The position numbers were made by a program, and so were the translations under genes. Positions 6,643 to 64,000 of a DNA stretch of 64,000 bases are shown here, piece after piece; position 1 is the first letter of the stretch, and each line of letters begins with the position of its first letter. The notes beneath the pieces are model-generated. The model did not search any database, was not told where the DNA came from, and saw only the letters and a list, made by a program, of their open reading frames with translations. The stretch comes from a virus: positions 1 through 64,000 of the IMG/VR virus record IMGVR_UViG_3300025154_001031. The stretch is one strand, 5' to 3'.

Positions 6643-6757
6643 ATTATAGTCTCAAAATGCAACATTTAAAGTATTTGTCACAAATCTCAACAAAAAGGCT
6701 TGACAGTCACGAAACGCAACATTATAATAAGTATTAGGAAGTCACAAAACGCAACAT
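6643..6757. promoter_or_regulatory. Divergent lysogeny switch: promoters and three operator repeats
   Basis: For the rightward genes there is a consensus promoter, TTGACA at 6700-6705 and TATAAT at 6723-6728 with a 17-bp spacer. For the repressor, a TATAAT (minus strand) lies at 6643-6648. The 17-bp repeat GTCACRAAACGCAACAT occurs at 6706-6722 (filling the rightward spacer) and 6741-6757. A variant, GTCTCAAAATGCAACAT, occurs at 6649-6665 next to the repressor -10 box. These are the probable CI/Cro operators: binding at 6706 would block early transcription and binding at 6649 would autoregulate the repressor. Confidence 0.8.
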
Positions 6758-6780
6758 AATTTTTTAAGAAGGTGGTATCT

Positions 6781-7017
6781 ATGAAAATAAAAGCTCGCGA
6801 ATGGTTAATGGTTCTTAGGGGCGACTTAACACAGCAACAGGTTGCAGATATGGCAGGGATAAGCCGTTCTTACTATACAGGAATAGAAACAGGTCTTAGG
6901 AATGCCAGCGTTTCGGCAGCAAAGGCAATTGGTAAAGTTCTCGGATTTAAATGGACAAAATTTTTTGATGACGATTGTTGCGAAACGCACCAATCAACCG
7001 GAACCGAGGGACGTTAG
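6781..7017 (+). CDS. Cro-like HTH XRE regulator
   Basis: A 78-residue protein made almost entirely of one XRE helix-turn-helix (LTQQQVADMAGISRSYYTGIETGLRNASV), followed by AKAIGKVLGFKWTKFF, the usual end of short Cro/phage regulators. The first gene of the rightward early operon, it would compete with the CI-like repressor at the shared operators. The ATG at 6781 is chosen because AGAAGGTGG ends 5 bases upstream; an in-frame GTG at 6772 lies inside that ribosome-binding site. Confidence 0.85.
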   Translation: MKIKAREWLMVLRGDLTQQQVADMAGISRSYYTGIETGLRNASVSAAKAIGKVLGFKWTKFFDDDCCETHQSTGTEGR

Positions 7018-7029
7018 GAGGTGAATCTG

Positions 7030-7269
7030 GTGCATTACGACGTTAAGACACTAGCCTCAAACGATCATACCGAGCTGGAATTTTTAGTATCCGGTTGGCT
7101 CAGGGAAGATCGTCCAGAGAGAATCATTAAATGCCAGTTCGTAGCTGATGGGGCTGAGTATACCTACTGTGTTCTGTTTATTTATATACCCCGCAACAAG
7201 CCGTTGCCGGGCGGGAAAAGCTTCAGAACGAAACTAAAAAGTTTCTTGTCATGCTTTGCGGGGTGGTAG
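7030..7269 (+). CDS. Hypothetical early protein, 79 aa
   Basis: Unrecognised small protein with alternating hydrophobic and polar segments (ELEFLVSGWLREDRPERIIKC), probably a small alpha/beta fold, and a basic C-terminal third. AGGAGGTG at 7016-7023 places the start at GTG 7030 rather than GTG 7021, which lies inside the ribosome-binding site. It follows cro by a few bases in the early operon. No function can be assigned. Confidence 0.5.
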   Translation: MHYDVKTLASNDHTELEFLVSGWLREDRPERIIKCQFVADGAEYTYCVLFIYIPRNKPLPGGKSFRTKLKSFLSCFAGW

Positions 7270-7308
7270 GACAAGCAATAATAGTATGCCACGAAAGGAG
7301 GGAGAACA

Positions 7309-7647
7309 TTGCTAAAGTGCAAATGCGGTTTTAAGGTACCGGACAGAGCTAAATTCTGCCCAGAGTGTGGCCGAATGATTCAACGCCCAGAACCAAAACC
7401 TGAGCCGAAGCCGGAAGCACAGGAACATAAGCCTCAAAATATATACACCGTCAAAACGGCAGCAAAAGAGTTTTTTCAGGGTGCTATAGGTGAGACAAAA
7501 TTGCGTGAACTGATAAATAAAGGTGAAATACCTTGTTCACGCTTTGGCGTAAAAATACTGCTTCGCGAAGAGTCTCTTATTGCTTGGATGGCTGAGCAGG
7601 AGAAAAAATCTATAGCTACTGCAAAGCCTTTGCGCTTGGCTAGGTAG
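7309..7647 (+). CDS. Zinc-ribbon plus excisionase-type winged HTH protein
   Basis: Residues 1-25 form a zinc ribbon (CKCGF..CPECG). A Pro-Glu-Lys-rich linker of repeated PEPKPEP follows, and then residues 48-105 form a MerR/excisionase-type winged helix (GAIGETKLRELINKGEIPCSRFGVKILL). The latter matches the helix-turn-helix of the DNA-binding excisionase family (HTH_17). In an integrase-carrying phage the simplest role is recombination directionality factor (Xis) or early regulator. The zinc ribbon fused in front is unusual for a plain Xis. TTG start with GGAGGG upstream. The role is inferred from the domain and from the presence of int and attP. Confidence 0.6.
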   Translation: MLKCKCGFKVPDRAKFCPECGRMIQRPEPKPEPKPEAQEHKPQNIYTVKTAAKEFFQGAIGETKLRELINKGEIPCSRFGVKILLREESLIAWMAEQEKKSIATAKPLRLAR

Positions 7648-7663
7648 AAAGGAGGGACAAGCA

Positions 7664-7885
7664 TTGCCAGATAACAAAGAGCTTTTCGACAAACTCCATT
7701 TTGTAATCATGCTCTGCGCTGAGGACTGGGCTAAGTGTAATACCGAACGCCCCAGGATTCACGCACTGGGCGAACTCCGGGGAGCAATTTCAGCTTGGTT
7801 CGTGGTAGCCAATCACTACGAGTTGCCGGGCAGGATGGAAATTTATGCTGAATACAAAAGTATGTCTTTTGTTCCGAGGAAGTAG
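7664..7885 (+). CDS. Hypothetical early protein, 73 aa
   Basis: Unrecognised small soluble protein, probably helical (KELFDKLHFVIMLCAEDWAKC), with an aromatic-rich C-terminus. TTG start with AAAGGAGGG 6-8 bases upstream, 16 bases after the excisionase-like gene. The 106 bp that follow hold a GCTGGG/CCCAGC hairpin but no clear promoter. Confidence 0.5.
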   Translation: MPDNKELFDKLHFVIMLCAEDWAKCNTERPRIHALGELRGAISAWFVVANHYELPGRMEIYAEYKSMSFVPRK

Positions 7886-7991
7886 CCGGTCGGCCTTGGC
7901 TGGGCGGGAACCCAGCGCAGAGGTGTTTGCGGTCAGCAAGCAAGTATTTGTTTTATAGGTATATTACACCATGAGGAAGGGGGTGTAGGAA

Positions 7992-8495
7992 ATGTACAAA
8001 GCTGCACGAAACAAAGCTGGATTGAGCGCGGAAGCCGCATCATTCAGGATTCATATAGGCAGAAGGACACTGATCAACTATGAAGGCGGCAGTAGCACAA
8101 TACCGCCTGAAGTGGTATTAAAAATGGCCGAGGAATACGAGCAGCCTAGCCTCTGTGCAAAACATTGCTCAAAAAACTGTCCAATTGGGCAAAAATTTGC
8201 TCAGGATGTCGAGGAGAAAGAGTTAGAAGTGGCCGTACTAAGGCTATTGAAAAATCACACGGATGTAAGGCTTATCCGCGACAGGCTTACTGAGATAGCA
8301 GAGGACGGGATTATTGACTCTGATGAAATGCCGGACTTTGAAAATATCATGGAGGAGCTGCTGGGGCTGGAAAGGTCTATCATGGCCATGAAGTTACTGG
8401 CCGCCAAGGTGCTACCGTTGGACAAGATGATTCAGCGGCAAAAAGAAAAAACCTCCAAGCGGGCAAACCGCATGGGGGCTGTAGAAAAATGTTAG
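7992..8495 (+). CDS. HTH XRE-like protein with helical C-terminal domain
   Basis: Residues 1-55 resemble an XRE helix-turn-helix beginning at YKAARNKAGLSAEAASFRIHIGRRTLINYEGG (quoted in part: residues 2-33). A cysteine cluster (CAKHCSKNCPIG) near residue 55 follows, then a long helical region to the end. Proteins of this layout occur in early operons of Bacillota prophages and are presumed regulators. AGGAAGGGGGTG precedes the ATG. The stop overlaps the next reading frame, suggesting coupled translation. Confidence 0.6.
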   Translation: MYKAARNKAGLSAEAASFRIHIGRRTLINYEGGSSTIPPEVVLKMAEEYEQPSLCAKHCSKNCPIGQKFAQDVEEKELEVAVLRLLKNHTDVRLIRDRLTEIAEDGIIDSDEMPDFENIMEELLGLERSIMAMKLLAAKVLPLDKMIQRQKEKTSKRANRMGAVEKC

Positions 8496-8542
8496 GAATA
8501 TTGTACCATGTCGCGTTGGTGTGGTCAAGGGAGGCGAAAGAT

Positions 8543-8686
8543 TTGGCTTGTATTGACTGTAGGTTTTGCGTTACTCAGAAAGGCAACTTTAAGTACAAGT
8601 GCACTAAACACGGCCTAAATTTACAATCTGGAGCAGCTTATCCGTGTTACGCATTTGAGGTAAAGGAGGGCTGCAAAGATGAGTAA
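8543..8686 (+). CDS. Small cysteine-rich protein (possible zinc finger)
   Basis: A 47-residue protein with CIDCRFC near the N-terminus and two later cysteines (YKCTKHG, YPCYAF), enough ligands for one zinc site. I prefer the TTG at 8543, preceded by AGGGAGG at 8529-8535. An alternative ATG at 8489 would add 18 residues overlapping the previous gene but has a poor ribosome-binding site. It overlaps the start of the next gene by 8 bases. Function unknown. Confidence 0.5.
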   Translation: MACIDCRFCVTQKGNFKYKCTKHGLNLQSGAAYPCYAFEVKEGCKDE

Positions 8687-8939
8687 ACTTGCAGACGCTC
8701 TTAATAAAATCCAGGACGGCTTAACTGAACTGGATGAGGTTATGAATGTTCTTGATACTGAAATTTGCGGTAACAGGAAGGTTATCAATGTCATGTCTCT
8801 CAGGGATTTGGAGCAGATCCCGGGAGAGTTGAAATGTGAGGCCAAGGGTGGATTCAAAGAGTATTCAAAGAAGTTTATGGGAACCGAGTTTGTATTTTGG
8901 GAGGGTTATTGGGTTATTGAAAGTTCCGAGGTGGCTTAA
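8679..8939 (+). CDS. Hypothetical protein, 86 aa
   Basis: An N-terminal amphipathic helical segment (ADALNKIQDGLTELDEVMNVL) is followed by a mixed region ending in aromatics (EFVFWEGYWVIE). ATG with GGAGGGCTG upstream. Its stop codon overlaps the ATG of the following cysteine-rich gene (TAATG), so the genes are translationally coupled. Not recognised. Confidence 0.5.
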   Translation: MSKLADALNKIQDGLTELDEVMNVLDTEICGNRKVINVMSLRDLEQIPGELKCEAKGGFKEYSKKFMGTEFVFWEGYWVIESSEVA

Positions 8940-9250
8940 TGAAGCGCCTTGTTGTCAAAAGAAAACTTAAAAGATGCTGCACGCATTGCGGCAAAAAGTT
9001 TTCTAAGGGGGATGTTTATTACAAGAAACGCGAAGTCTTTGTTGAAGAAGGATTAGTAATGGGGTTTGAATTCCTTGCTTGTCCGAAATGTAAGTATAAG
9101 CAAGAGCGGCGCAAGGAGCGTTGCAGCAGGTTTAAAACTAACTGTCCTCATCCAGATAAGTTTATAGACGAAAAATGGTGCTACATTCCTGGTGAGGCAG
9201 TCATGGAACCTGATTATAGCTACTGCACTTTATGTGGAAAGATTTTATAG
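8939..9250 (+). CDS. Multi-zinc-finger-like protein, 103 aa
   Basis: Contains four CxxC-type pairs (CTHCG, CPKC, CSRF..CPH, CTLCG) spread over 103 residues, indicating two or more zinc-binding knuckles, with a basic N-terminus (KRLVVKRKLKR). Probably binds nucleic acid or acts as a small zinc scaffold protein. It ends 5 bases before the tRNA-like RNA. No family assigned. Confidence 0.5.
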   Translation: MKRLVVKRKLKRCCTHCGKKFSKGDVYYKKREVFVEEGLVMGFEFLACPKCKYKQERRKERCSRFKTNCPHPDKFIDEKWCYIPGEAVMEPDYSYCTLCGKIL

Positions 9251-9255
9251 TTTAC

Positions 9256-9350
9256 GGAGCGGTGGCGGAATAGGTAAACGATATTTGGCAATGGGCCGCC
9301 AGGACAGGCTGAATCCCATAGCTTGCAGGGTGCAAATCCCTGCCCGCTCT
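9256..9350 (+). ncRNA. tRNA-like RNA with long variable region and odd anticodon arm
   Basis: Acceptor strands GGAGCGG (9256-9262) and CCGCTCT (9344-9350) pair over 7 bp, the first a G-U pair. TGGCGGAATAGGTAAACG is a near-perfect class II (Leu/Ser) D arm. CAGGG TGCAAAT CCCTG (9326-9342) is a T arm with G in place of the second T of the TTC motif. The middle is irregular: TGGC/GCCA closes an 8-base loop containing T-GGG, so the would-be anticodon is unclear. No CCA is encoded. It may be a decayed phage tRNA-Leu/Pro or a tRNA mimic. Confidence 0.55.
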
Positions 9351-9379
9351 GTATCAATTTTATATAAGGAGGAATCCTC

Positions 9380-9721
9380 ATGGATAAAACTTTAGTTATT
9401 GGTCGTTTATTGGAACTGCCATCGCTTATCGAAGCAGCTGAGCAGGATGTTATAGAGATTCACGAAAATATGGTTTCAGCTAAAAACGCTTTAGTTGAGC
9501 TCGAAGCTAGGCTTATTTTAGGACAGTTGAGTACAAAGATTGACGGGAAAAATGCGGAGCAACGTCAGGCTCAGGTTCTCCAGGCTACGGAAGAGGAGAG
9601 AGTGGTTTTAGCTACTGATGAACGTGCGCTTAGTGTTGCTAGGGCAGCATTAAACAGATTACAGAACGAACTCAAAGTCTACAGGGTTGTAGCTTCGTTA
9701 ATGGCCGGGGAGGCGGTTTAA
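9380..9721 (+). CDS. Small coiled-coil protein, 113 aa
   Basis: Almost wholly helical with heptad-like spacing (LIEAAEQDVIEIHENMVSAKN, later ALSVARAALNRLQNELKVY); a coiled-coil dimer is likely. It precedes a putative recombination protein and the SbcD/SbcC pair, and the next gene starts at the base after its stop codon. AAGGAGG precedes the ATG. Probably an accessory of the recombination block, by position only. Confidence 0.5.
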   Translation: MDKTLVIGRLLELPSLIEAAEQDVIEIHENMVSAKNALVELEARLILGQLSTKIDGKNAEQRQAQVLQATEEERVVLATDERALSVARAALNRLQNELKVYRVVASLMAGEAV

Positions 9722-10798
9722 GTGGGCGAAACTACTGCTGTAGCCATTAGATCTGATTTTGATTTAACCGCTAAGGTGGAGGAACTGAGGAATAAAAAAT
9801 TTAACATCCTTCTACCGACCACGACTTTTGCAAGTCAATCAGAACTTTATGTACCGAGACTGGATATAGTGATACCGGAAGGCATAAAAGGCGGCGACTT
9901 CTATGCTCAGAGTAATAAAAATATTGGCACAGAGGAAAAGAAGGTTTGGGTTAAGCCTATGGCTCCTTCAGCACAGTTTTTAAGCAAGGTTGCTTCAGCC
10001 GCAAACATTCAGTGGCACCCGGATAAAAGCTGCCATACCCTCATAGAAAAAATGCGGGTTGTGTATAAAGCGGTAGCTGCCATTCGTCAGGCAGACGGAT
10101 CCTGGAGAATTATTACGGATGAGTATGAGCTTGACCTTGAAGTAATTGAGGAAGAGCTGAATGTGGAATATAAGAAAAAGTCGCGATTCAAAGACTTTCA
10201 AGAGAAGATGAAAAAGGAATGCATGACGGTAGAGGATTACGTTAGGCGGGATCTTCTGCAGAAGCGCAAGCATAAACTGGCTTTAGCTAGCACTGGTGCA
10301 ATGAACCGAGTTATCAGAAAGGCTTTGACCCTGAAAAACACTTACCTGCCGGACGAGGCCAAAAACCCTTTTGCCATAGCAAAATTTGACTTTCAGCCTG
10401 ACTTTAACGACCCGACAGGTAAGTGTTTTTCTTCAATGGCGGCAGTTCGGGCGCAGAATGATCTGTTTGGCGGTGGTGGCTTAGAAATGCCTTTGGGCGC
10501 TACGGAAGAGGATAACCAAGCTGCCGCAGAGTTCGGTGATAGCGGTACTGGGAAAGTCATTGACATTAAGGCAAGTGATTATGACGGTAATACTAGCGGG
10601 GATAATTATTCAGGTAGCGGTGCAGGTGAAGATCCCTTTGCTGGCATGATTTTCTGCCAGCATTGCGGCGAGGAAATACAGGGTAGTGGTAAGAGAACTC
10701 CAGAGGCTATAAAGGATTATTCTGAAAGAACCTTTGGCGGGAAAGTGTACTGCCTTGAATGTCAGAAGGAAGCCAGGGCCGGGAGGATCGCATCATGA
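9722..10798 (+). CDS. Putative phage recombination protein with C-terminal zinc ribbon
   Basis: A 358-residue protein that I cannot place with certainty. The central part (residues 60-235) is alpha/beta, with a charged helical stretch and the segment NTYLPDEAKNPFAIAKFDF. A Gly/Asp-rich low-complexity linker (about residues 255-310) follows, then a zinc ribbon (CQHCGE ... CLECQ). It lies directly before SbcD and SbcC with a 4-base ATGA overlap, the usual place of a single-strand annealing or ssDNA-binding partner in phage recombination operons. GTG start. Annealase is a hypothesis from context, not from a recognised motif. Confidence 0.45.
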   Translation: MGETTAVAIRSDFDLTAKVEELRNKKFNILLPTTTFASQSELYVPRLDIVIPEGIKGGDFYAQSNKNIGTEEKKVWVKPMAPSAQFLSKVASAANIQWHPDKSCHTLIEKMRVVYKAVAAIRQADGSWRIITDEYELDLEVIEEELNVEYKKKSRFKDFQEKMKKECMTVEDYVRRDLLQKRKHKLALASTGAMNRVIRKALTLKNTYLPDEAKNPFAIAKFDFQPDFNDPTGKCFSSMAAVRAQNDLFGGGGLEMPLGATEEDNQAAAEFGDSGTGKVIDIKASDYDGNTSGDNYSGSGAGEDPFAGMIFCQHCGEEIQGSGKRTPEAIKDYSERTFGGKVYCLECQKEARAGRIAS

Positions 10799-11988
10799 GG
10801 ATAGCACATTTGGCGGACATGCACTGGGGTATGAATTACCCCGGTCCTAGTCCCGAAAGCCGGTTTGATGATATTTCAAGAACTATGGACTGGACAGCGG
10901 ATCGAATTATTGAAGAAAAATGCGATCTGGTTCTTGTGGCCGGTGATGCGTTTAAGGATTCGAGGGTATTTTTAGACCGGGCTAGCCTGGAAATTAAGGC
11001 GTTTGTTGCCTGGTTAAGGAAGGTAAGTGCTGCAGGAATAGATGTTGTAGCTATCAGCGGAACACCTAGTCATGATGCAGTGGCAGCCTATGAATTAATT
11101 AAGGAAATGCGAATACCGAGGGTTTGCATTGAGACTACTCCCAGGGTAGTAAAGCATTTAGTGGACATTGCCTGCATCCCCGGTTTAAACCGTTCCAACC
11201 TGGTCACACAAGAGGAATACCGTACTATGTCTGCAGCTGAAATCCACAGAATTATGACGGGGAAAATAACACAATTAGCGATTGGGATGCGGTCTCAGTG
11301 CGGAGGAGTGCCGATTCTACTGACACACATGGCCTACCAGGGGGCAGATACCGGATATACAGACTTAATGATGCAGAATGAACCGGTACTGATGCAAGAG
11401 GCGGTGAATGGATATAGTCTGACATGCTTGGGGCATATCCACAGACCGCAACAGATAGGCGAAACAGTGTTTTATTCCGGAAGTCCGGAGCGGCTAAGTT
11501 CCCACTCCGAGCATATTAAAACAGGCTTCTGGATACATGAGCACAACGGCAATGGGTTTGATTCAAGGTTTATCGAAACTCCTGCCAGGCGGTACTGTAC
11601 TTTAGAAGTTGATTTTAGTCAGTACGGTGACCTTAAAAGTGCTATGGAGTGGGAACTTGCAGGGATGAGCGAGGAAGGATTCGGGGAGTTGCTATTATTT
11701 CCAACTACCGGAGCTATAACTAGGTTGAAGTACAGATGCACGGAAGAGCAGGCTAAACTCCTTTCCCGTAAGGCTATCGAACACACGCTTTACAAGGGCG
11801 GCGCTTACTTTGTATCAGAGATAAAGGCCGATATCGAGAGGCAGGATCGGGCAAGGGACAGGGAAGTAACCGAGTCATTAGGACCTATAGAGGCGCTGGC
11901 CAAATGGGCTGAAAAGCAAGGTATTGCCAGTGAGGAAATAACCACCTTGCAAAGCATGACTGCCAGCTTAATGGAGGTGGTAGCGTGA
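10795..11988 (+). CDS. sbcD: SbcD/Mre11-like DNA nuclease
   Basis: A calcineurin-like metallophosphoesterase that with SbcC would open and trim DNA ends during phage recombination or replication. Metal-binding motifs in order: HLADMHWG (residue 4), VAGDAF (about 48), SGTPSHD (about 94, replacing the usual GNHD), LTHMAYQ (about 180) and CLGHIHRPQ (about 216). At 397 residues it is normal size. The ATG at 10795 overlaps the stop of the upstream gene, with GGAGG just before. The SbcC gene overlaps its end by 4 bases (GTGA), so expression is coupled. Confidence 0.88.
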   Translation: MRIAHLADMHWGMNYPGPSPESRFDDISRTMDWTADRIIEEKCDLVLVAGDAFKDSRVFLDRASLEIKAFVAWLRKVSAAGIDVVAISGTPSHDAVAAYELIKEMRIPRVCIETTPRVVKHLVDIACIPGLNRSNLVTQEEYRTMSAAEIHRIMTGKITQLAIGMRSQCGGVPILLTHMAYQGADTGYTDLMMQNEPVLMQEAVNGYSLTCLGHIHRPQQIGETVFYSGSPERLSSHSEHIKTGFWIHEHNGNGFDSRFIETPARRYCTLEVDFSQYGDLKSAMEWELAGMSEEGFGELLLFPTTGAITRLKYRCTEEQAKLLSRKAIEHTLYKGGAYFVSEIKADIERQDRARDREVTESLGPIEALAKWAEKQGIASEEITTLQSMTASLMEVVA

Positions 11989-14534
11989 TACCGCTGAGAA
12001 TTGAAGCCAGAAACTTTGGGGCATTGAAACAGGTTGACGTGAGGCTTGACAACGTAAATCTTGCTGCCGTGGTTGGTGTAAACGGGATCGGCAAAAGCAC
12101 ATTATTCACCATAGCACCGTTATTTGCTCTTTTCGGTGAGGTAAAAAGAAACTGCAGCATTGATGACATGGTTAAGTCAGGAGAGCAGGACTGTTATGTA
12201 AGCCTTGAATTTGAGCATAGGGATAAGGTGTATCGCGTAACCAGAACACGTTCATCTAAGGGTAGAGGTAAAAGCACGTTGGAATTGCAGAGATTATTGC
12301 CAGACGGGCAGTGGGGAAAATTAACCGGGGATACTGTCAGAGAAACTGACGAAAAAATACGGGAACTTTTAAGCTTAGACGCTGAGACTTTTACTGCTTC
12401 GTCAATGGTATTGCAGGGACGGGCGAATGAATTCACCAACAAGCCTGCAGGTCAACGGAAGTTAGTTCTTGGGCAGATTCTTGGACTAAGTATCTATGAG
12501 AGATTGCAGGAAAAATCCCGAGAGAATGAGAGAACGGCCACCAACAAAATTGAGAAGCTAAAAGCTAAGAAATTAGAACTGGACATAAGGATTGGAGCTT
12601 TGCCTCAGATTGAAAGTGACATTAAGAACACCAAGAAAGAACTAGAAAAGGTTGCTGCTGATATTGTCGCCGGTGAGTCTGAACTAAAGGAAGTTGAGAA
12701 CGCAGTCAGGGACGTTGAAGCTAAAAAAATAAAGTTTGATGAAATCAATGCACAGGTTAAAACCTTGGATGATGAAATATTCACTAAGGGCGTAGAGAGG
12801 TCGGAGCAAGAGAAAAAGCTTAGGCAGGCCATAACTGCAATTAGCATGGAGGATGAGGTACTAGCTAAGGCAGAAAAACATGAGCAAACTAAGCAGCAGA
12901 TTGTCTTGCTAGAAGTCAAGGAACCTCAGTTAAACATCTTGGCCAATAAAAGATACACTCTTGCTGATAATATAAAAACAACCCAGGACAAGCTATTAGC
13001 TCTACAAGAACGCATAAAGAAGGGCGTAGACCTTATTGCCAGCCTGGAGGCATTCAAAAAGGAAACCGAAGAATACCCAGCCTTGGTTAAGAAATTAGAA
13101 GAACTTGACGTTTTAGCCGAGAAGGATGCCGCTTTAAAGCTACGATATACGGTAGCTAAGAATAGCTTTACCGACAAAAGTAACGCAATGCACTATAAAG
13201 AAGACATCCTAAATGCTGAAATAAAATCTCTCGAGGTAAAAGTAGCACTACTTAACGACAGTAACTGCATAGACCCTGAAAAGGCTGCTTGTAGGTTTTT
13301 GGCCGATGCAGTTAAAGCTAAGGCACGGTTGACAGAGGCGCAAGAGGAATTAAAAGCGCTGGATTGGTCGGAGTGCCAGAGGCTGAATAAAGTTGTGTCG
13401 GACATCAAGAAAGAAATGGATGAACTTAACTATAACGTATCTGACCACAAAACAACAAAAGAAAAGGTTAAGATATTGGCCACCAAGGCTGAGAAGGTAG
13501 CTAAACTTGCCAGCAGTGAAGAGCTCTTAAACAACCTTCGGGAGCAGGAGCAGGACTTACTACAGGCCATAGAACAGTTGAACATTAAGAAAAATGATGC
13601 TGATGAGAAGGTTGCGGCCTTGTCTGATGAACTTAAGAGACTGCCATACTTAAGAAATCTTTTAACCTACCTTGAACCGTGGTTGAAACTGAAAGATGAA
13701 CTGCCGGTTCAGAAGCAAAACAAGGAAAACGCTCAGGAAAAAATAGCAGCCATCACTACTGAAATAGCAGATAAAACATTCAGAAGATCATGTCTGGTGG
13801 TAGATAGTTTTGAGATCGAGGATGAAATTAAAAGCCTGCCAGTTAAGCAGGGATTGGTAAGGAAACTGGGTGATGCACTGCAAACACTAAACACTAACAG
13901 AGACTCATTAAATAATCGCTCAGGTGCTTTAAAAGCGAAGCTGGAGGCATTGGAGCAGGATAAACTTGAGCAAGACAAGCTAAACGTAGAACTGCAGTCG
14001 TTAGCCAAAGAATTAACCAGGTGGCAGACGTTATACAAAGCTTTCGGCAGGGATGGGATCCCGGCACTGATAATTGAAAATGCGGTACCGGAACTTGAAC
14101 GGATAGCTAACGAAATTTTAGGCCAGATGAGTAAAGGCGAACACTCCCTGAGATTTGAGACCCAGCGGGAGCTAAAGAGCAAGGCTGGTGTTTCTGAGAC
14201 TCTTGACATTATAGTTAGCGACTGGGCCGGTGAAAGAGTATATGAAACTTTTAGCGGTGGTGAGCAGCTTAGGATTGATTTTGCAATACGGTTTGCACTG
14301 GCTGAGCTCTTAGCACGGAGGGCCGGGGCAAAGATTGAGTGGCTAACGGTTGACGAGGGCCTTGGTAGTCAGGATGCAGAGCATAGAGGGTTGGTCCTGG
14401 AGGCTATAAAGGCTGTGGCTGATAGATTTAAGAAAACGCTGGTTATTACACACATCGAGGAAGCTCAGGCGGTATTTGAGCAGAAGATTTTATTTGAAGG
14501 TAAGGACCATGGGGTTAGTGTAACCGTGGCATAA
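11985..14534 (+). CDS. sbcC: SbcC/Rad50-like ATPase
   Basis: The SMC-like partner of SbcD. Walker A is GVNGIGKST at residues 31-39. Two long coiled coils span about 190-420 and 450-640, around a hinge with CIDPEKAAC near residue 427. The ABC signature FSGGEQLRIDF is near 755 and Walker B LTVDEG near 787, followed by the D-loop GSQD. The hinge cysteines are spaced C-x7-C rather than the classical CxxC zinc hook, so metal-mediated dimerisation may differ. GTG start overlaps the sbcD stop. A length of 849 is slightly short for SbcC, as usual in phages. Confidence 0.88.
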   Translation: MIPLRIEARNFGALKQVDVRLDNVNLAAVVGVNGIGKSTLFTIAPLFALFGEVKRNCSIDDMVKSGEQDCYVSLEFEHRDKVYRVTRTRSSKGRGKSTLELQRLLPDGQWGKLTGDTVRETDEKIRELLSLDAETFTASSMVLQGRANEFTNKPAGQRKLVLGQILGLSIYERLQEKSRENERTATNKIEKLKAKKLELDIRIGALPQIESDIKNTKKELEKVAADIVAGESELKEVENAVRDVEAKKIKFDEINAQVKTLDDEIFTKGVERSEQEKKLRQAITAISMEDEVLAKAEKHEQTKQQIVLLEVKEPQLNILANKRYTLADNIKTTQDKLLALQERIKKGVDLIASLEAFKKETEEYPALVKKLEELDVLAEKDAALKLRYTVAKNSFTDKSNAMHYKEDILNAEIKSLEVKVALLNDSNCIDPEKAACRFLADAVKAKARLTEAQEELKALDWSECQRLNKVVSDIKKEMDELNYNVSDHKTTKEKVKILATKAEKVAKLASSEELLNNLREQEQDLLQAIEQLNIKKNDADEKVAALSDELKRLPYLRNLLTYLEPWLKLKDELPVQKQNKENAQEKIAAITTEIADKTFRRSCLVVDSFEIEDEIKSLPVKQGLVRKLGDALQTLNTNRDSLNNRSGALKAKLEALEQDKLEQDKLNVELQSLAKELTRWQTLYKAFGRDGIPALIIENAVPELERIANEILGQMSKGEHSLRFETQRELKSKAGVSETLDIIVSDWAGERVYETFSGGEQLRIDFAIRFALAELLARRAGAKIEWLTVDEGLGSQDAEHRGLVLEAIKAVADRFKKTLVITHIEEAQAVFEQKILFEGKDHGVSVTVA

Positions 14535-18473: not shown

Positions 18474-19373
18474 TTGGCCAAGGGCGACAGAGATAATTTC
18501 AAAGCCGATACCGACGACGGGTATACAAAAATTGCAAATTTACTCCTGGAAGCCCTGGCCATGTCTAAGCTGAACGGGATACAGAAAGGCATTTGTCTTT
18601 TCTTGTGGCGCAGGACTTATGGGTGGGGACAAAAAGAGGATCAAATATCCCTAAAGGAGTTTGCCCAGGCTTGTAGTACCAGCGAACAATATATTTCCAG
18701 ACAAATTAAACAGCTGGTTAACTGTAAAGTCATTATTCGTACTTCATATCAGCCGGGCAAGGCTCCTACCTATACCTATAATACAAGGGTTGCAGAATGG
18801 GACAAGGATTGCATAGATGTGCAGGGGTTGCACGATTGTGCAATACAAGGGTTGTACATATGTGCAATACAAGGGTTGCACGATTGTGCAAGGGTAAACC
18901 AGCCTCTAGGCCACGAAACACAAGGCTTAGAGCCATGCCTAAAGAAAGATCTAAAGAAAGATAAAGAAATTAATGATGATACAGCAGATAGCGGAAAATT
19001 ATGCGAAAATCTTTATTCGATTTTTGAAAATGAATTTGCCAGACCCCTTGGGCCGATGGAAATAACTCAGCTAACAGAATGGATTAATAACGACAAGCTA
19101 ACCAACGAGCTTATTTTAGAGGCACTAAGACGTGCTGTTTTTGCAGGTAAGTTCAAGTTTAGCTATATAAGCAGTATTCTGTTTGACTGGCTTAAAAACA
19201 ATATCAGAACAATGCAAGAGGTTCAGGAGAGAGATAAAGAGTTTAAAGATTGTCAGAGTAAGAAGCAAGATAATAAAAGCAAATCCAGGGCCAGTCCCCA
19301 AGCAGATACTTGGGGTAATCCTAAAAACGTGGACAAGGAAAAGGAACTCCTTAGGCAACTTTATAATAATTAG
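18474..19373 (+). CDS. Phage replication initiator, O-protein type
   Basis: The N-terminal 110 residues match the phage replication protein O domain: a winged helix that binds the origin (GYTKIANLLLEALAMSKL, then FLWRRTYGWG and a QISLKEFAQACSTSEQYISRQIKQL core of which I cite residues 63-85). Residues 118-142 are three near-identical QGLxxCAI repeats, produced by iterons in the DNA that probably are the origin. The C-terminal half is helical and basic at the end, likely the helicase-loader contact. TTG start after GTAGGTGTGG. Followed by the DnaC-like loader. Confidence 0.8.
   Translation: MAKGDRDNFKADTDDGYTKIANLLLEALAMSKLNGIQKGICLFLWRRTYGWGQKEDQISLKEFAQACSTSEQYISRQIKQLVNCKVIIRTSYQPGKAPTYTYNTRVAEWDKDCIDVQGLHDCAIQGLYICAIQGLHDCARVNQPLGHETQGLEPCLKKDLKKDKEINDDTADSGKLCENLYSIFENEFARPLGPMEITQLTEWINNDKLTNELILEALRRAVFAGKFKFSYISSILFDWLKNNIRTMQEVQERDKEFKDCQSKKQDNKSKSRASPQADTWGNPKNVDKEKELLRQLYNN
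18825..18896 (+). repeat. Iterons inside the O gene, probable replication origin
   Basis: Three 24-bp direct repeats start at 18825, 18849 and 18873. Each begins with GGGTTG and holds a palindrome TTGCAC..GTGCAA (the middle copy is TTGTAC..GTGCAA). A purine-rich, AT-rich stretch follows from about 18935 and could be the unwinding region. This layout, iterons inside the initiator gene, is that of lambda-type origins. Confidence 0.7.
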
Positions 19374-59509: not shown

Positions 59510-59722
59510 ATGAAACGAGAATTCACTAAGATGGACTGGTTTTTCGCTATCTGCATGGCTGCTTGCTTGCTGGCTTACCTGTATAGTTGTCTGACCGGAA
59601 AACCAATTGAGCAGATCAAGGACATGATGCAGTATTTCGGCGTTGGTCTTGGGTTAACTGCTGGTAAGATTGTTATTAATAATTTGGGTGGAGGGGAAAA
59701 AGATGCAGATAAAACCGTTTAA
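59510..59722 (+). CDS. Holin-like small membrane protein, 70 aa
   Basis: Two hydrophobic segments (WFFAICMAACLLAYLYSCL and YFGVGLGLTAGKIVI) separated by a charged turn, between XhlA and the amidase, which is the usual place for a holin. Overlaps the amidase start by 20 bases. GAGGTG before ATG. Confidence 0.65.
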   Translation: MKREFTKMDWFFAICMAACLLAYLYSCLTGKPIEQIKDMMQYFGVGLGLTAGKIVINNLGGGEKDADKTV

Positions 59723-60299
59723 TTGGGGCGACAGGGTAAAGCATTTCATTCCGCTCAAAGTAGTTAACTATCTAGTTATACACCATACCGAAAGCCCGGA
59801 CGTGCCTGCAACGACAGTTGACCAGTGGCACAAAAACAAAGGATGGCTGGGTATCGGGTATCATTTTCTTATTCGTGCTGACGGTAGTATTGAACAAGGC
59901 AGGCCCGAGAATGTTGTCGGGGCGCATACGCTAAACTATAATAGTCAATCAATAGGTATTTGCTTGACGGGTAAGTTTATGACTAACAAGCCTGCTACTG
60001 CTCAGATGGACGCTCTGGAGGAATTATTGACAGCCCTCCGGGGCAGGCACCCACAAGCTAAAACAGTACGGCACAAAGACCTACAAGCTACGTCCTGTCC
60101 TGGTGTTTTATTTCCTTGGCAGGAGCTATTGGACAGGCTTAACCGGCCCGCTGATGCCGTAACCATTATAGTTAGAGACAAGAAACTCGCCGGTAAATTG
60201 ATTGATGGACAGACATGGATTCCGCTGCGGGCTGTCCTGGAGGCTTTGGGGCACAAGGTTACCTGGGACGGAATTGCCCGAAAAGTTACAGTTGAATAG
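59703..60299 (+). CDS. N-acetylmuramoyl-L-alanine amidase (endolysin) with wall domain
   Basis: Residues 1-140 are an amidase_2/PGRP-type zinc amidase: LVIHHTES (zinc His near residue 26), GIGYHFLIRADGSIEQGR, VGAHTLNYNSQSIGICLTG and HKDLQATSCPG (about 124), which together give the zinc and catalytic residues. Residues 153-198 are a copper amine oxidase N-terminal-like domain (QTWIPLRAVLEALGHKVTWD), probably the wall-binding part. ATG 59703 with GGAGGGG. Cuts peptidoglycan at the end of infection. Confidence 0.88.
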   Translation: MQIKPFNWGDRVKHFIPLKVVNYLVIHHTESPDVPATTVDQWHKNKGWLGIGYHFLIRADGSIEQGRPENVVGAHTLNYNSQSIGICLTGKFMTNKPATAQMDALEELLTALRGRHPQAKTVRHKDLQATSCPGVLFPWQELLDRLNRPADAVTIIVRDKKLAGKLIDGQTWIPLRAVLEALGHKVTWDGIARKVTVE

Positions 60300-60309
60300 T
60301 TTTTATCGA

Positions 60310-60335
60310 AGCCCTGCCCTTATGGCGGGGCTTTT
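60310..60335 (+). terminator. Terminator between lysis genes and csf operon
   Basis: AGCCCTGCC (60310-60318) pairs with GGCGGGGCT (60324-60332, one G-U pair) around a 5-base loop, running into TTTC. The csf1 ribosome-binding site begins four bases later. Confidence 0.75.
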
Positions 60336-60350
60336 CTTGGAGGTGAAACA

Positions 60351-61046
60351 TTGCAAATTCTAACCCCAACACAACTAATTAGGCAGGCAGCTCTAAAAAC
60401 TCCCAGTGTGCCGGTAGCAATGGGCAAAACCATAGAGTATGCTGACGTACAGCTGGAAGAAGTAAAGGATCAAAGATGTTGGCTATGCGGAGGAAAAACG
60501 GGAGGTCAGGGACAACCCATCAAAAAAGCTATCAAGCCGACATTCACCGACCGGGACAAGGCCCGCGTACCTCACAGTAATTCACTTTGTCCTGGCTGTG
60601 CCTTCTGCCTGTCATATTCGCCACTCAGGAACTATAATATTTTGGCGACAATGGACGGCTTGAGACACCCAACAAGGCCGGAAGTTAAGGAGTTGCTACT
60701 TGAACCTCCTGAGCCGCCTTTTGTTCTCTGTATTGCTGTGTCAGGGCAGAAGTGGTTACATTTCCGCTCTAAAGTGGCGTATTCGCGGGACGGATTCCCG
60801 GCACAGTTAGAGGAAACGCTAATATGCGTAGAAAGGCCGTTGCTCCGCGAATGGCTGGAGGTTATCGAAGAACTGTATACCGTATTTACGAAAGAGGAAA
60901 TCAAGACCGGCAGGTACAGCCAGAACAGAATCAAGACGTTCGGCCTGAATGAATTTCAGTCAGTTGACGGGAAAATAGCAGGAGTGAGAGGGACAAGGCT
61001 TTTCGATTTGGCCGTCTTTGTCGCTCAAAAGAAAGGAGAGGAATAA
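60351..61046 (+). CDS. csf1: Csf1-like type IV CRISPR large-subunit protein
   Basis: A 231-residue protein with one zinc site: C43-W-L-C46 and C80-P-G-C83 (plus C86), as in Csf1 proteins of type IV CRISPR-Cas systems. These take the place of the large subunit in the crRNA complex (known for the family). Only the cysteine pattern, length and its position before Cas11-, Cas7- and Cas5-like genes support the name. TTG start behind GGAGGTGA (60339-60346), just after the lysis terminator. Its stop abuts the ATG of the next gene (TAAATG). There is no HD domain. Confidence 0.7.
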   Translation: MQILTPTQLIRQAALKTPSVPVAMGKTIEYADVQLEEVKDQRCWLCGGKTGGQGQPIKKAIKPTFTDRDKARVPHSNSLCPGCAFCLSYSPLRNYNILATMDGLRHPTRPEVKELLLEPPEPPFVLCIAVSGQKWLHFRSKVAYSRDGFPAQLEETLICVERPLLREWLEVIEELYTVFTKEEIKTGRYSQNRIKTFGLNEFQSVDGKIAGVRGTRLFDLAVFVAQKKGEE

Positions 61047-61511
61047 ATGTATTACAATTTTGACACAGAGGAAGAAAACGCTGCCACTGCTGCTCTGCTG
61101 GTATATGCCATATACCGAAGCCGCGACGCGAAGCGCTTTAAAGTCAATCCTGAGATGTGGACAAGGATCGAAAACGCTGTCAAATCAGCCTCAAAGCGTG
61201 CTATGGATTTAGGGGATTTTATCGAAAAACTCAAACCTAAACTGCAATGCGGGACGATTCACCCACGCTGGGCAAAGACTATCCCGGATGGCATTGTCAG
61301 TATGCGGGTTATGCCTGACGGATCAGTTATTGAGGTGGCAGACAGCGGGAAACGCCAATTCCTTACCGACGTTCTGAATGAGGCGGATCACCGGGCAGTG
61401 CTGGATTATCTCTATCGCAAAACTGCCTTAGTTGTGCTATTGGTCAGGGACAGGCTTGAACGCGAAAAGCCTATTGAAATTAAATTAGGGGAGGATTTTA
61501 TTGATGTCTAG
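61047..61511 (+). CDS. Cas11-like small subunit candidate, 154 aa
   Basis: A mostly helical 154-residue protein: AATAALLVYAIYRSRDAKRF, then RIENAVKSASKRAMDLGDFI and a late DHRAVLDYLYRKTALVVLLV (20 residues). Its place between csf1 and csf2, size and helical character fit Cas11-type small subunits as described in type IV-B and IV-C loci. No sequence motif proves this. It starts at the base after the csf1 stop and overlaps csf2 by 8 bases. Confidence 0.45.
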   Translation: MYYNFDTEEENAATAALLVYAIYRSRDAKRFKVNPEMWTRIENAVKSASKRAMDLGDFIEKLKPKLQCGTIHPRWAKTIPDGIVSMRVMPDGSVIEVADSGKRQFLTDVLNEADHRAVLDYLYRKTALVVLLVRDRLEREKPIEIKLGEDFIDV

Positions 61512-62682
61512 TATTAGATTGGATGGAAAAATCACATTATTGTCGCCTTTATCACATATTGGGGAAAGTTCAGGAATTGACAGTTTCTTGTCAACTGATA
61601 CTGTTATTGGGGTAGATGGAAAACCTTTGGAAGTATTCACCTACAGCGGGAACGCATTTAGGGGGCAACTTCGCGATCTATGCGCCGCCTATATGACCGA
61701 GAAGCTTGGGAATTTGCAGTACAATCCCGATGTGTTCTATCTCTTGTTCTCAGGCGGTTCCCTTGGTGGCGCTCAGTCAGTTGACATAGACCAGGCCCGC
61801 ATGTATCGCAGAAATATTCCGATGCTCAGCGTGTTTGGCGGCGGCGTAGGTAATCAGATTCTAACCGGCAAAATCAAGGTTGGTGCTATGTATCCACTCA
61901 CGGAAGAATGCCAGAGAATTCTTCCTGAACATTTGAGAGACGAAAATGCGCCAAGTTGGCGGCAATGGACTTTCGACAAGAGCTTTACCCGCATGGACGA
62001 TGCCAAAAACGAGAACATGCGTAAATACCTAACAGGTACCGAAACAGATGGACTTGCCATAACCGGGCAGGCAGAGGATGACAAAAAGAAAAAGAAAAAA
62101 GAAGATCCTCCACAGCAGATGCGGTATACCGTTGAAATGCTGGCGGCAGGTGCTGTGATGTACCAGCGTATTGATTTATGCGATCTGTCCGATTTGGAGC
62201 TTGGGGCTTTTGTGTCTGCCTTAGTGGAATTTTCCAAGAAAAGCTACATTGGGGGTAAGAGCGGCACCGGCCACGGGCTCGTAGACATCGAATACACCTG
62301 GAGAAAAGCAGGACAAAAAGAATCTGAAGGGATTTTCCTGAAAATTTCCTCTGACTGCCTTTGGTTATCAGAACCAGCAGAAGAAGCCAAACAGAGTTAT
62401 GATCAGTTTTTGGTGACTTTATACGACAGGTATTTGGAAAATAGCGCCGATGAGCTGGCTAAGCTGTTGAGCGGAGAAACTGTAAAACCAGGTAAACCGG
62501 AAGAATCAGACGTTTCAGTCATTAGGAAAACGCTTAGTAAGGCAGTAAAGCATTTATCCGACAATGAGCTCATTTCTTTATGGGAAAGATGGTCTAGTGA
62601 ATGTTATAGTGCTGGCTCATTATCTCCTAGTAAAGAATATTGCAACGAGTTTAAAGCTTGGTTGTCGGCAGGTGGAAAATAA
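61504..62682 (+). CDS. csf2: Csf2-like Cas7 backbone protein
   Basis: A RAMP-fold protein that would form the helical backbone along the crRNA. LLSPLSHIGES lies near the start (residues 11-21), GNAFRGQLRDLCA near residue 50 and the glycine-rich GGKSGTGHGL near 250, which are the Csf2/Cas7 landmarks. A low-complexity DDKKKKKKE lies at about 195, likely a loop. Length 392 is usual for Csf2. The ATG at 61504 lies 9 bases after AGGGGAGG; a TTG at 61501 is possible. It overlaps the small subunit gene and shares a base with csf3. Confidence 0.8.
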   Translation: MSSIRLDGKITLLSPLSHIGESSGIDSFLSTDTVIGVDGKPLEVFTYSGNAFRGQLRDLCAAYMTEKLGNLQYNPDVFYLLFSGGSLGGAQSVDIDQARMYRRNIPMLSVFGGGVGNQILTGKIKVGAMYPLTEECQRILPEHLRDENAPSWRQWTFDKSFTRMDDAKNENMRKYLTGTETDGLAITGQAEDDKKKKKKEDPPQQMRYTVEMLAAGAVMYQRIDLCDLSDLELGAFVSALVEFSKKSYIGGKSGTGHGLVDIEYTWRKAGQKESEGIFLKISSDCLWLSEPAEEAKQSYDQFLVTLYDRYLENSADELAKLLSGETVKPGKPEESDVSVIRKTLSKAVKHLSDNELISLWERWSSECYSAGSLSPSKEYCNEFKAWLSAGGK

Positions 62683-63365
62683 TGCAACCTTTAAAGATTA
62701 CGGCAAAAATGCAGGATGGAAGGGTAGCGGGAACCGATCCATATTTCCCGCTTGACAGCATTATGGCCGCCGAGTGGATGCGGAGAAATCATCCGGAAGC
62801 GTACTACAATGCCAGCAGTCACTTACTGACCAACGATCTAATTGTACCGGATCTACCGCTTGCCCGATGCGGAGAAGGCGAGGACTGGTATTTTGCGTGC
62901 AGCTTCAATACAGTGCCTTCTCAAAAAGAATACGTCATGCACTGGCACAAACGTTTTGACGATCACCTTGACCAGCACATTGATTTCAAGGGCAAACGTG
63001 GCAAGGTTGATATTAAATCCGGCAAAAACAAGGCGTACCGGATGCCGCTTGTCGTGCAACTATTCGATAGGCTAGAATGGTTCGCTGTTGGCGATCTAGA
63101 AGCTGTACGCGAACTGACTGAGGTTGCTACTCATATCGGCAAAAAATCAAGTCAGGGACTTGGAGCAGTAGAATGCTGGACTGTTGAGCCATGGCCGGAT
63201 GATTGGAGTCTAGTCATCCGCGGAAAATTGACCAGAGCTATTCCCGTTGAGTCAGGATTTCCTGAAGGTGTCAAAGAGTCTAGGATTGCGCTATATGGAA
63301 TCAGATCCCCGTACTGGCACACCTCGAACCAAAGAGTCTGTATGATGCCGGAGGTGGTAGTATGA
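62682..63365 (+). CDS. csf3: Csf3-like Cas5 protein
   Basis: A 227-residue protein of the Cas5/Csf3 type: LKITAKMQDGRVAG at the start, FPLDSIMAAEWMRRNHPE (about 20-37) and the Gly-rich KKSSQGLGAVECW (about 153-165) typical of RAMP proteins binding the crRNA 5' handle. The ATG at 62682 overlaps the csf2 stop (TAATG) with GGTGG just upstream; an upstream start inside csf2 is not needed. Overlaps cas6 by 4 bases (ATGA). Confidence 0.75.
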   Translation: MQPLKITAKMQDGRVAGTDPYFPLDSIMAAEWMRRNHPEAYYNASSHLLTNDLIVPDLPLARCGEGEDWYFACSFNTVPSQKEYVMHWHKRFDDHLDQHIDFKGKRGKVDIKSGKNKAYRMPLVVQLFDRLEWFAVGDLEAVRELTEVATHIGKKSSQGLGAVECWTVEPWPDDWSLVIRGKLTRAIPVESGFPEGVKESRIALYGIRSPYWHTSNQRVCMMPEVVV

Positions 63366-63997
63366 TCAAGGTTAGATTACCTGTCAAATTTAACGACGGC
63401 AAACAGCTCTATGATGCAGCACTAAAACTCATTGGCCGGGTATCGCCGGTGATGGCACAGATCATCCATTCAAAGCCAGACTTTAACCCGTTTAGTGTGC
63501 AGTTGCCGGACATTATCTGCATCATGGAACCAAGCCTTGAAATAGCAGTTAGTCAGTTGCCGAATACGGAAATAGTTTCCCAGATGGATTTTAGAGAGTG
63601 TTTTACTGAAAACCCGGCAAGCCTGATAGAACTGAGTTTCCTAAACACGTTTTTCAAAAAAGCTCAGACTTCTTATCCCTTACCCGATCCCTGGTTAATG
63701 ATTGGAGCATGGAAAAACCGCTGGAATAGCTTATTACCCGCTCGTGTGGGTATAGAAATACCTATCGAAAATAAAAGAAAGTCCGAAAAAATACAGGTTA
63801 GGCGGGCAAATATAAACACATTACGCGTGCAGATAGCCGACTATCAGCCGAATATAGCTTTTTGCGGTAGCGTAAGACTAAAGTGGTTGGGGGACGAAAA
63901 GGAGTTGCGTGAGTTTGTTGCACTGGCCAGGTTTGCTGAGTTTTCCGGGACTGGCGCAAAAACTACTATGGGGTGCGGGGTGACACGGCTTGGATGA
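63362..63997 (+). CDS. cas6: Cas6-like CRISPR RNA endonuclease
   Basis: A 211-residue double-RAMP protein. The N-terminal strand IKVRLPVKF is followed by a helix and H36 in IIHSKPDFNPFSV, the normal place of the catalytic histidine. The C-terminal FSGTGAKTTMGCGVTRLG (residues 194-211) is the Cas6 glycine-rich loop. Cas6 cuts pre-crRNA at repeats, which implies an array somewhere on the element or in the host. The ATG overlaps the csf3 stop. The gene is complete and ends three bases before the window does. Confidence 0.78.
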   Translation: MIKVRLPVKFNDGKQLYDAALKLIGRVSPVMAQIIHSKPDFNPFSVQLPDIICIMEPSLEIAVSQLPNTEIVSQMDFRECFTENPASLIELSFLNTFFKKAQTSYPLPDPWLMIGAWKNRWNSLLPARVGIEIPIENKRKSEKIQVRRANINTLRVQIADYQPNIAFCGSVRLKWLGDEKELREFVALARFAEFSGTGAKTTMGCGVTRLG

Positions 63998-64000
63998 TTG

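Follow-up and report, generated by a model that had tools for sequence, protein, structure and literature searches.

The stretch of DNA analysed here, called the window, spans 64,000 nucleotides and represents bases 1-64000 of the 67,041-base IMG/VR virus record IMGVR_UViG_3300025154_001031, which IMG/VR places in its linear class, often a fragment. Near its 3′ end the window carries a type IV CRISPR effector module with a predicted Cas6, situated behind the lysis genes of a temperate phage. Five consecutive open reading frames on the + strand (positions 60351-63997), all uninterrupted and overlapping or abutting one another, correspond to csf1, cas11, csf2, csf3 and cas6. A reading made from the sequence alone had proposed type IV effector genes at this place, and a PADLOC profile search named all five of them. 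The proposed operon end at 63997 did not stand, since a CysH-like gene of the PAPS-reductase family (255 amino acids, contig 63990-64757) overlaps cas6 by 8 bases. Its product has only one cysteine and a PP-loop of sequence SFGKDS, and is devoid of the EC[GA][IL][HR] motif. The features of the locus are listed in Table 1.

Table 1. Features of the csf module and the adjoining lysis genes (window coordinates unless marked as contig or L007).
Feature	Position	Strand	Basis
Small protein, probable holin	59510..59722	+	Size and place; 76% identical homologue before the same module in L004; no Pfam match
N-acetylmuramoyl-L-alanine amidase (endolysin), directly before csf1	59670..60299	+	Pfam Amidase_2 4.1e-23
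Terminator-like GC-rich hairpin and T run, between amidase and csf1	60308..60338	+	Read by eye
csf1 (type IV large subunit, Cas8-like; CxxC pairs; 231 amino acids)	60351..61046	+	PADLOC typeIV_Cas8 E 7.9e-37
cas11 (type IV small subunit)	61047..61511	+	PADLOC typeIV_Cas11 5.5e-47
csf2 (Cas7)	61501..62682	+	PADLOC typeIV_Cas7/Csf2 2.3e-70
csf3 (Cas5)	62682..63365	+	PADLOC typeIV_Cas5/Csf3 1e-48
cas6 endoribonuclease (predicted)	63362..63997	+	Pfam PF10040 6.9e-14, above cut-off; PADLOC Cas6 3e-13
CysH-like gene, first codons in window	63990..64000, continuing to contig 64757 (L007:5991-6758)	+	PF01507 2.2e-25

In NCBIfam, Csf1, Csf2, Csf3 and Cas6 were all matched below the curated cut-offs, and we therefore regard the set as divergent members of their families. 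Pfam returned a single RAMP match for Csf2, below cut-off, and a profile search of Cas11 against the PDB gave no useful match. The window Csf2 has about 65 additional C-terminal residues that are not present in L004, L005 and L006 in our alignments. As a control for profile specificity, each of the seven hidden Markov models (HMMs) built here was run against 13,241 letter-shuffled open reading frames, with no match at E 1e-3.

The record contains the markers of a tailed temperate phage, comprising terminase, capsid, head protease, tape measure, integrase, pRha and Amidase_2. The near-identical record G001 (L002) matches the window record at 99.6-100% identity across the region, and L003 and L004, from two metagenomes, share the order holin, csf1-cas11-csf2-csf3-cas6-cysH and membrane protein. 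Because these other phage contigs (L002, L003 and L004) preserve the gene order, a misassembly joining phage and csf genes is ruled out. Together with the phage marker genes, this bears out the sequence-only reading in treating the csf genes as cargo of a temperate phage; the position it gave them, behind the lysis module, is likewise correct. Inspection by eye places the module after lysis genes in L004, L005, L006, L008, L041, L046 and L055 as well, and apparently among early or replication genes in L047-L049, L053, L054, L056, L059, L061, L068 and L080.

Judged by sequence and predicted structure, the window cas6 product is a genuine Cas6. An AlphaFold2 model built from an alignment of eight phage sequences reached a predicted local distance difference test score (pLDDT) of 86.9. 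Foldseek matched this model to Thermus and Streptococcus Cas6 proteins and to the type IV Cas6 6njy, with template modelling scores of 0.67-0.74 by query length (0.74 for both 4c8y and 6njy). All eight aligned sequences share His36 as well as the glycines in the Gly-rich C-terminal loop. Entry 4c97, one of the Foldseek matches, carries an H37A mutation, and His36 lies close to this His37 in number; the two are likened by numbering alone.

On sequence criteria, the nearest subtype is IV-B, as indicated by gene content (a CysH-like gene, Cas11 and no DinG-type helicase found) and by the nearest solved Csf2. When the Csf2 profile was searched against the PDB, the closest chain was IV-B 7jhy (4.9e-35), followed by 11fs, labelled ‘Cas7c’ (6.7e-26), and then by type IV Csf2 chains at 5.5e-13 (8rc2) or weaker. 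The large-subunit gene encodes Csf1, in place of the Cas10-like large subunit with an HD domain of type IV-C. Type IV-B has been described as lacking both a CRISPR RNA (crRNA)-processing enzyme and an array (PMC8175902, PMC7937560); because Cas6 is present here, we classify the module as a variant of type IV-B and not as a plain member. One sentence in PMC8730458 lists Cas11 for IV-A and IV-C but not for IV-B, contrary to the other two papers, and the same source places CysH in some IV-A systems as well. CasCysH has been described as lacking a catalytic cysteine (PMC8175902), in line with the absence of the EC[GA][IL][HR] motif from all 58 strong CysH HMM matches across our loci, DUF3440-type matches included. 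Among the 12 virus records that bear a PF10040-type Cas6, neither a DinG-type helicase (PF13307) nor Cas1 was found in any, while 10 and 9 of 14 control genomes, respectively, were positive. The sequence-only reading had pointed past position 64000 as the place to seek a DinG/RecD-like gene and an array; the roughly 3 kb by which the contig could be extended contained the CysH-like gene, and no DinG-type helicase or CRISPR array was found there.

A Csf2 alignment search identified 49 loci in viral contigs and 6 in genomes, the latter from a second genome scan after a first had found none. With the window's own locus, the viral set comprises 50 virus records, some of them fragments. Cas6 of the PF10040 family lies above cut-off in 12 of the 50 (5 of 8 in one set and 7 of 42 in the other); sub-cut-off matches in G015 and G049 were left uncounted, and two further above-cut-off matches, on other contigs of host genomes, fall outside the 12. 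Cas6e (PF08798) occurs in 7 of the 50, always 3′ of csf2, with four cases confirmed by PADLOC and G033, G038 and G039 identified by position. Judged by position, all 19 genes fall within the csf operon or next to it, the cas6 of G030 about 1 kb past cysH, and they reduce to 15 distinct cases once the near-copies G000/G001, G002/G003, G033/G034 and G038/G039 are merged. A third class, a Cmx6-type Cas6 missed by PF10040, is encoded between csf2 and csf3 on a Gloeobacter plasmid. No PF10040 Cas6 was found in 14 other records (13 plasmids and 1 phage); on one Rhodococcus plasmid a Cas6e lies far from the csf genes. For the genome records G008-G013 the search covered PF10040 only. Of the 69 loci tabulated, 56 have a CysH-like gene within the operon or close to it; L009, with only a DUF3440-type match, is counted as being without one.

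Cas6 cleaves CRISPR-repeat transcripts. We hypothesize, with confidence that stands about midway, that the window carries a phage-borne type IV-B module with its own guide-RNA maturase, which hijacks guides in trans for inter-element conflict or counter-defence. By analogy, the Cas6 would cut CRISPR-repeat transcripts, Csf3 and Cas6 would hold the two repeat-derived ends, and Csf2 together with Cas11 would form a filament on the guide, as in the IV-B structure (PMC7937560). The precursors would be supplied mostly in trans, probably from host CRISPR arrays, as we infer from the fact that no array was found. Without a nuclease of its own, the complex would act with the CysH-like partner and would either block targets of rivals or of the host, or deprive the host of its guides. 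Cas6, and Csf3 to a lesser extent, would outpace the other csf products in change, perhaps tracking the repeats at hand. Counting in favour of this proposal are the gene identities, the match of the window Cas6 model to solved Cas6 enzymes, the array of G030 described below, the lack of any DinG-type helicase or Cas1 match in the 12 Cas6-bearing virus records, the divergence values given below, and the recurrence of several classes of Cas6-superfamily gene, which 19 of the 50 virus records have within the csf operon or next to it. Should host arrays indeed be the source of guides, phages would be exploiting the immune memory of their hosts for their own ends.

We scanned the 12 Cas6-bearing virus records (G026 minus its last 382 bases) for identical repeats of at least 19 bases at a spacing of 48-100 bases; such scanners respond only to identical runs of 16 to 19 bases and would overlook repeats that are degenerate or occur singly. 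The same kind of scan recovers the 25-repeat array of L119. The 67 kb record of the window phage, itself possibly a fragment, yielded neither a CRISPR array nor Cas1. The single array lies in G030 (L062), a tailed phage with terminase, portal, head protease and endolysin, and consists of four 29-nt repeats and three 32-nt spacers about 0.5 kb past cas6. Competition with plasmids or other phages, as surmised in the sequence-only reading, stays conjectural: the window record yielded no array, and exact searches of IMG/VR with two of the three G030 spacers matched only their own contig. Among the Cas6e records, no array was found in G028, G034, G037 and G045 (whole) or in the scanned parts of G033, G038 and G039. 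At gathering scores, Rfam detected no CRISPR repeat family in the window, L007, L004 or L062, which says little because Rfam also missed the L062 array.

The G030 array and the linear class of the window record, often a fragment, leave room for a self-sufficient type IV system whose array lies on an unrecovered part of the phage. We consider this improbable: G001 extends about 22 kb beyond the point where the window record stops, with no array seen, and none was seen in G002 or G003; short two-copy repeats there were read as coding or insertion-element repeats. Several array-like patterns were rejected. Window positions 18822-18891 hold three 22-nt copies at a 24-nt period, which is too short for an array and iteron-like, and the 21-mers of G003, spaced 65 nt apart, were read by eye as insertion-element ends in two inverted copies. 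Two-copy repeats in L002, L003, L035, L047, L053, L060, L065, L075, L077, L079 and L090 and the GC-rich runs of L014 were not taken as arrays, most of them being judged collectively. A mini-array look-alike occurs at L030 8905-8990 and L032 1692-1777, where paired 21-nt repeats 65 nt apart read as two inverted insertion-element-like ends.

Divergence between the window and L004 is uneven across the module. Nonsynonymous divergence (dN) is 0.051 for csf1, 0.078 for cysH, 0.084 for cas11, 0.087 for csf2, 0.149 for csf3 and 0.381 for cas6. In relatives, Csf3 and Cas6 contact the repeat-derived ends of the crRNA, and the high values of these two genes therefore fit a shift in repeats.

A number of observations weigh against the hijacking of guides in trans. 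Divergence almost equal to that of cas6 is also seen in the membrane gene 3′ of cysH (dN 0.353), synonymous sites are saturated in cas6 and csf3 between the window and L004, and in the pair L059/L061 cas6 is as conserved as the other genes (91%); the fast change of cas6 may instead reflect recombination. Eleven of the 12 Cas6-bearing virus records yielded no array. The class of G009, a Peptococcaceae metagenome-assembled genome, is only a candidate host range: Csf2 was matched in 3 of its 113 genomes, two of them already known, the phage capsid protein in 5 of 113, and Cas6 relatives in 18 of 113, these matching only from model position 66 on. In one genome of this class, the 24 spacers of one array showed no match to the csf loci collected here beyond 18 aligned bases. 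Neither an above-cut-off PF10040 nor a PF08798 match was found in 31 of the 50 virus records, some of which are fragments. Finally, a purified Mycobacterium IV-B complex showed no preference for crRNAs despite co-expression of Cas6 and an array (PMC7937560).

The same structural work reports heterogeneous RNA in the solved IV-B complex (PMC7937560), as would be expected if the module were a guide-RNA sponge, with the Csf filament binding small RNAs unselectively and Cas6 destroying or capturing host pre-crRNA. The module would then be an anti-CRISPR and not a guided effector, which would also suit a record with no array and no DinG-type helicase found. We regard such a sponge as possible but rather unlikely, given that a phage with Cas6, a IV-B module and its own array exists (G030), that three Cas6 classes have been taken up, and that a sponge has no need of the CysH-like gene present in or near the operon in most loci. 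This frequency of the CysH-like gene, together with matches of its product to BrxP and SspD profiles and the discussion of DndC, a DNA-modifying relative, in PMC8175902, could instead suggest a non-CRISPR role, in which the CysH-like enzyme would be the working part in nucleic-acid modification and the Csf complex an RNA-binding scaffold only. That role seems improbable to us, as it leaves the repeated uptake of Cas6 unexplained and 13 of the 69 loci are without such a gene, although some of these are cut by contig ends. The RNA cargo and function of type IV-B complexes are called open in PMC8175902, PMC7937560 and PMC11656645. An operon of type IV-B that encodes a Cas6, and a relative that has an array in addition, provide a defined pairing of repeat and maturase, which makes the question of the RNA cargo testable.

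A small protein with the motif xPHAVxxFxxR, for which we coin the name PHAV, is encoded in loci without Cas6. In a midpoint-rooted Csf2 tree of 66 rows, the 45-row side of the starred branch includes 17 rows with a Cas6-type gene, 15 with PHAV and none with both, while the 21-row side has one Cas6 row and no PHAV; rows with neither include contigs that end inside or beside the operon. Within the starred six-row set of the window, Cas6 occurs in the window, L004 and L006, and PHAV in L005, L008 and L040. The two also occupy equivalent places: between the same helix-turn-helix gene and csf1 lies cas6 in L006 and PHAV in L005, and between csf3 and cysH lies cas6 in the window and PHAV in a Rhodovastum plasmid. 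No PHAV was found in the examined portions of the 12 Cas6-bearing records. The non-overlap has a hypergeometric probability of 1.1e-4, uncorrected for phylogeny; a tree-corrected test was not significant, with 2-4 independent pairs of opposite and 0 of same state (median p 0.25). Mutual exclusion of PHAV and a Cas6-type maturase is thus suggestive, and it includes two weak PHAV rows, L047 (4e-4) and L085 (0.0036).

PHAV has no Pfam match above cut-off and no PADLOC match. Foldseek and VIA matched its model, at modest scores, mainly to RelE, ParE, HigB, YafQ, BrnT and contact-dependent inhibition (CDI) toxin folds, and also to Cami1, a CRISPR-associated RelE-type enzyme. The fold evidence is weak (best Foldseek E 0.26; VIA Z 5-7, possibly just a common arrangement), and three of the five AlphaFold2 models have a pLDDT near 62. 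It is conceivable, if unlikely, that IV-B modules of mobile elements serve as general RNA-guided machines whose guide-maturation slot is exchangeable and can be filled by Cas6, Cas6e, a Cmx6-type Cas6 or the unrelated RelE-fold, RNase-like PHAV, and in which a CysH-like enzyme modifies the target found by the guide. In that event PHAV would represent a novel class of maturase for CRISPR guides, and the replacement of Cas6 by a protein that may have a RelE fold would hint at a maturation step that has so far gone unnoticed.

Other genes in and around these modules were also recorded. A 312-residue membrane-like protein is encoded 3′ of cysH in the window phage (L007 6751-7689, contig 64750-65688) and in L004 (13055-13984), the two being 55% identical; neither has a Pfam match, and the window copy has no PADLOC match. 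L006 contains tandem csf sets (6680-11973), with cas6-csf1-cas11-csf2-csf3 followed by a second csf1-csf3 pair that has diverged, with 40% and 36% identity to the window. A DUF3440 PAPS-reductase-like gene adjoining a ParB-N-type gene is repeatedly found close to IV-B modules, in one phage and in plasmids (L008 12577-14234, L013 12056-14827, L015 7864-9941 and L020 7707-9781); the second gene of L020 is unnamed and the ParB_N match of L008 is below cut-off. By eye, a tRNA-guanine transglycosylase/DpdA-like protein lies in or 3′ of the csf operon at L045 10130-10879 and L064 11727-12440, and radical-SAM-like proteins lie in or after it in L070, L078 and L084. Rfam placed a Twister-sister ribozyme at L004 14707-14777 (40.5 bits), about 1.6 kb past cysH of this relative phage. 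Farther away, window positions 10759-14534 hold adjoining SbcD-like (phrog_100) and SbcC/AAA_23-like genes.

Type IV systems in phages have already been published (PMC11656645, PMC8730458, PMC10848311), as has a virus contig with csf2, csf3 and csf4 (PMC9723712). No IV-B system with Cas6 was found in the literature, which was surveyed in part and with the main type IV classification papers outside the survey. Type IV-A resembles the window module in its Cas6-type maturase and Csf1-3. It has DinG and an array; the window module has a CysH-like gene and Cas11, with no DinG-type helicase found and no array seen in a record that may be a fragment. The type IV-B system of Fuxivirus, a Bathyarchaeia virus, is likewise virus-borne and has a CysH-like gene, but it carries a mini-array of two repeats and one spacer and the term ‘cas6’ is absent from the main text (PMC10848311), in contrast to the window module, with Cas6 and no array found. 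The isolated Skermania phage SPI1, also tailed, has an unannotated IV-B-like module some 2 kb ahead of its lysin and holin (KR011061.1 32609-36242; L014 6846-10479), in which Orf40-44 include csf1, csf2, csf3 and a CysH-like gene, all detected by HMM, and a small gene at the place of cas11. This module differs in that no Cas6 or Cas6e was found, its genes are annotated as hypothetical and cas11 is assigned by position only. The closest likeness in gene content is to type IV-B of Rhodococcus and Mycobacterium plasmids (7jhy), which shares the csf1-cas11-csf2-csf3 core and a CysH-like partner without the EC[GA][IL][HR] motif, with neither Cas1 nor a DinG-type helicase in either. What sets the window module apart from these plasmid systems is its Cas6 and its place on a phage, behind the lysis genes.

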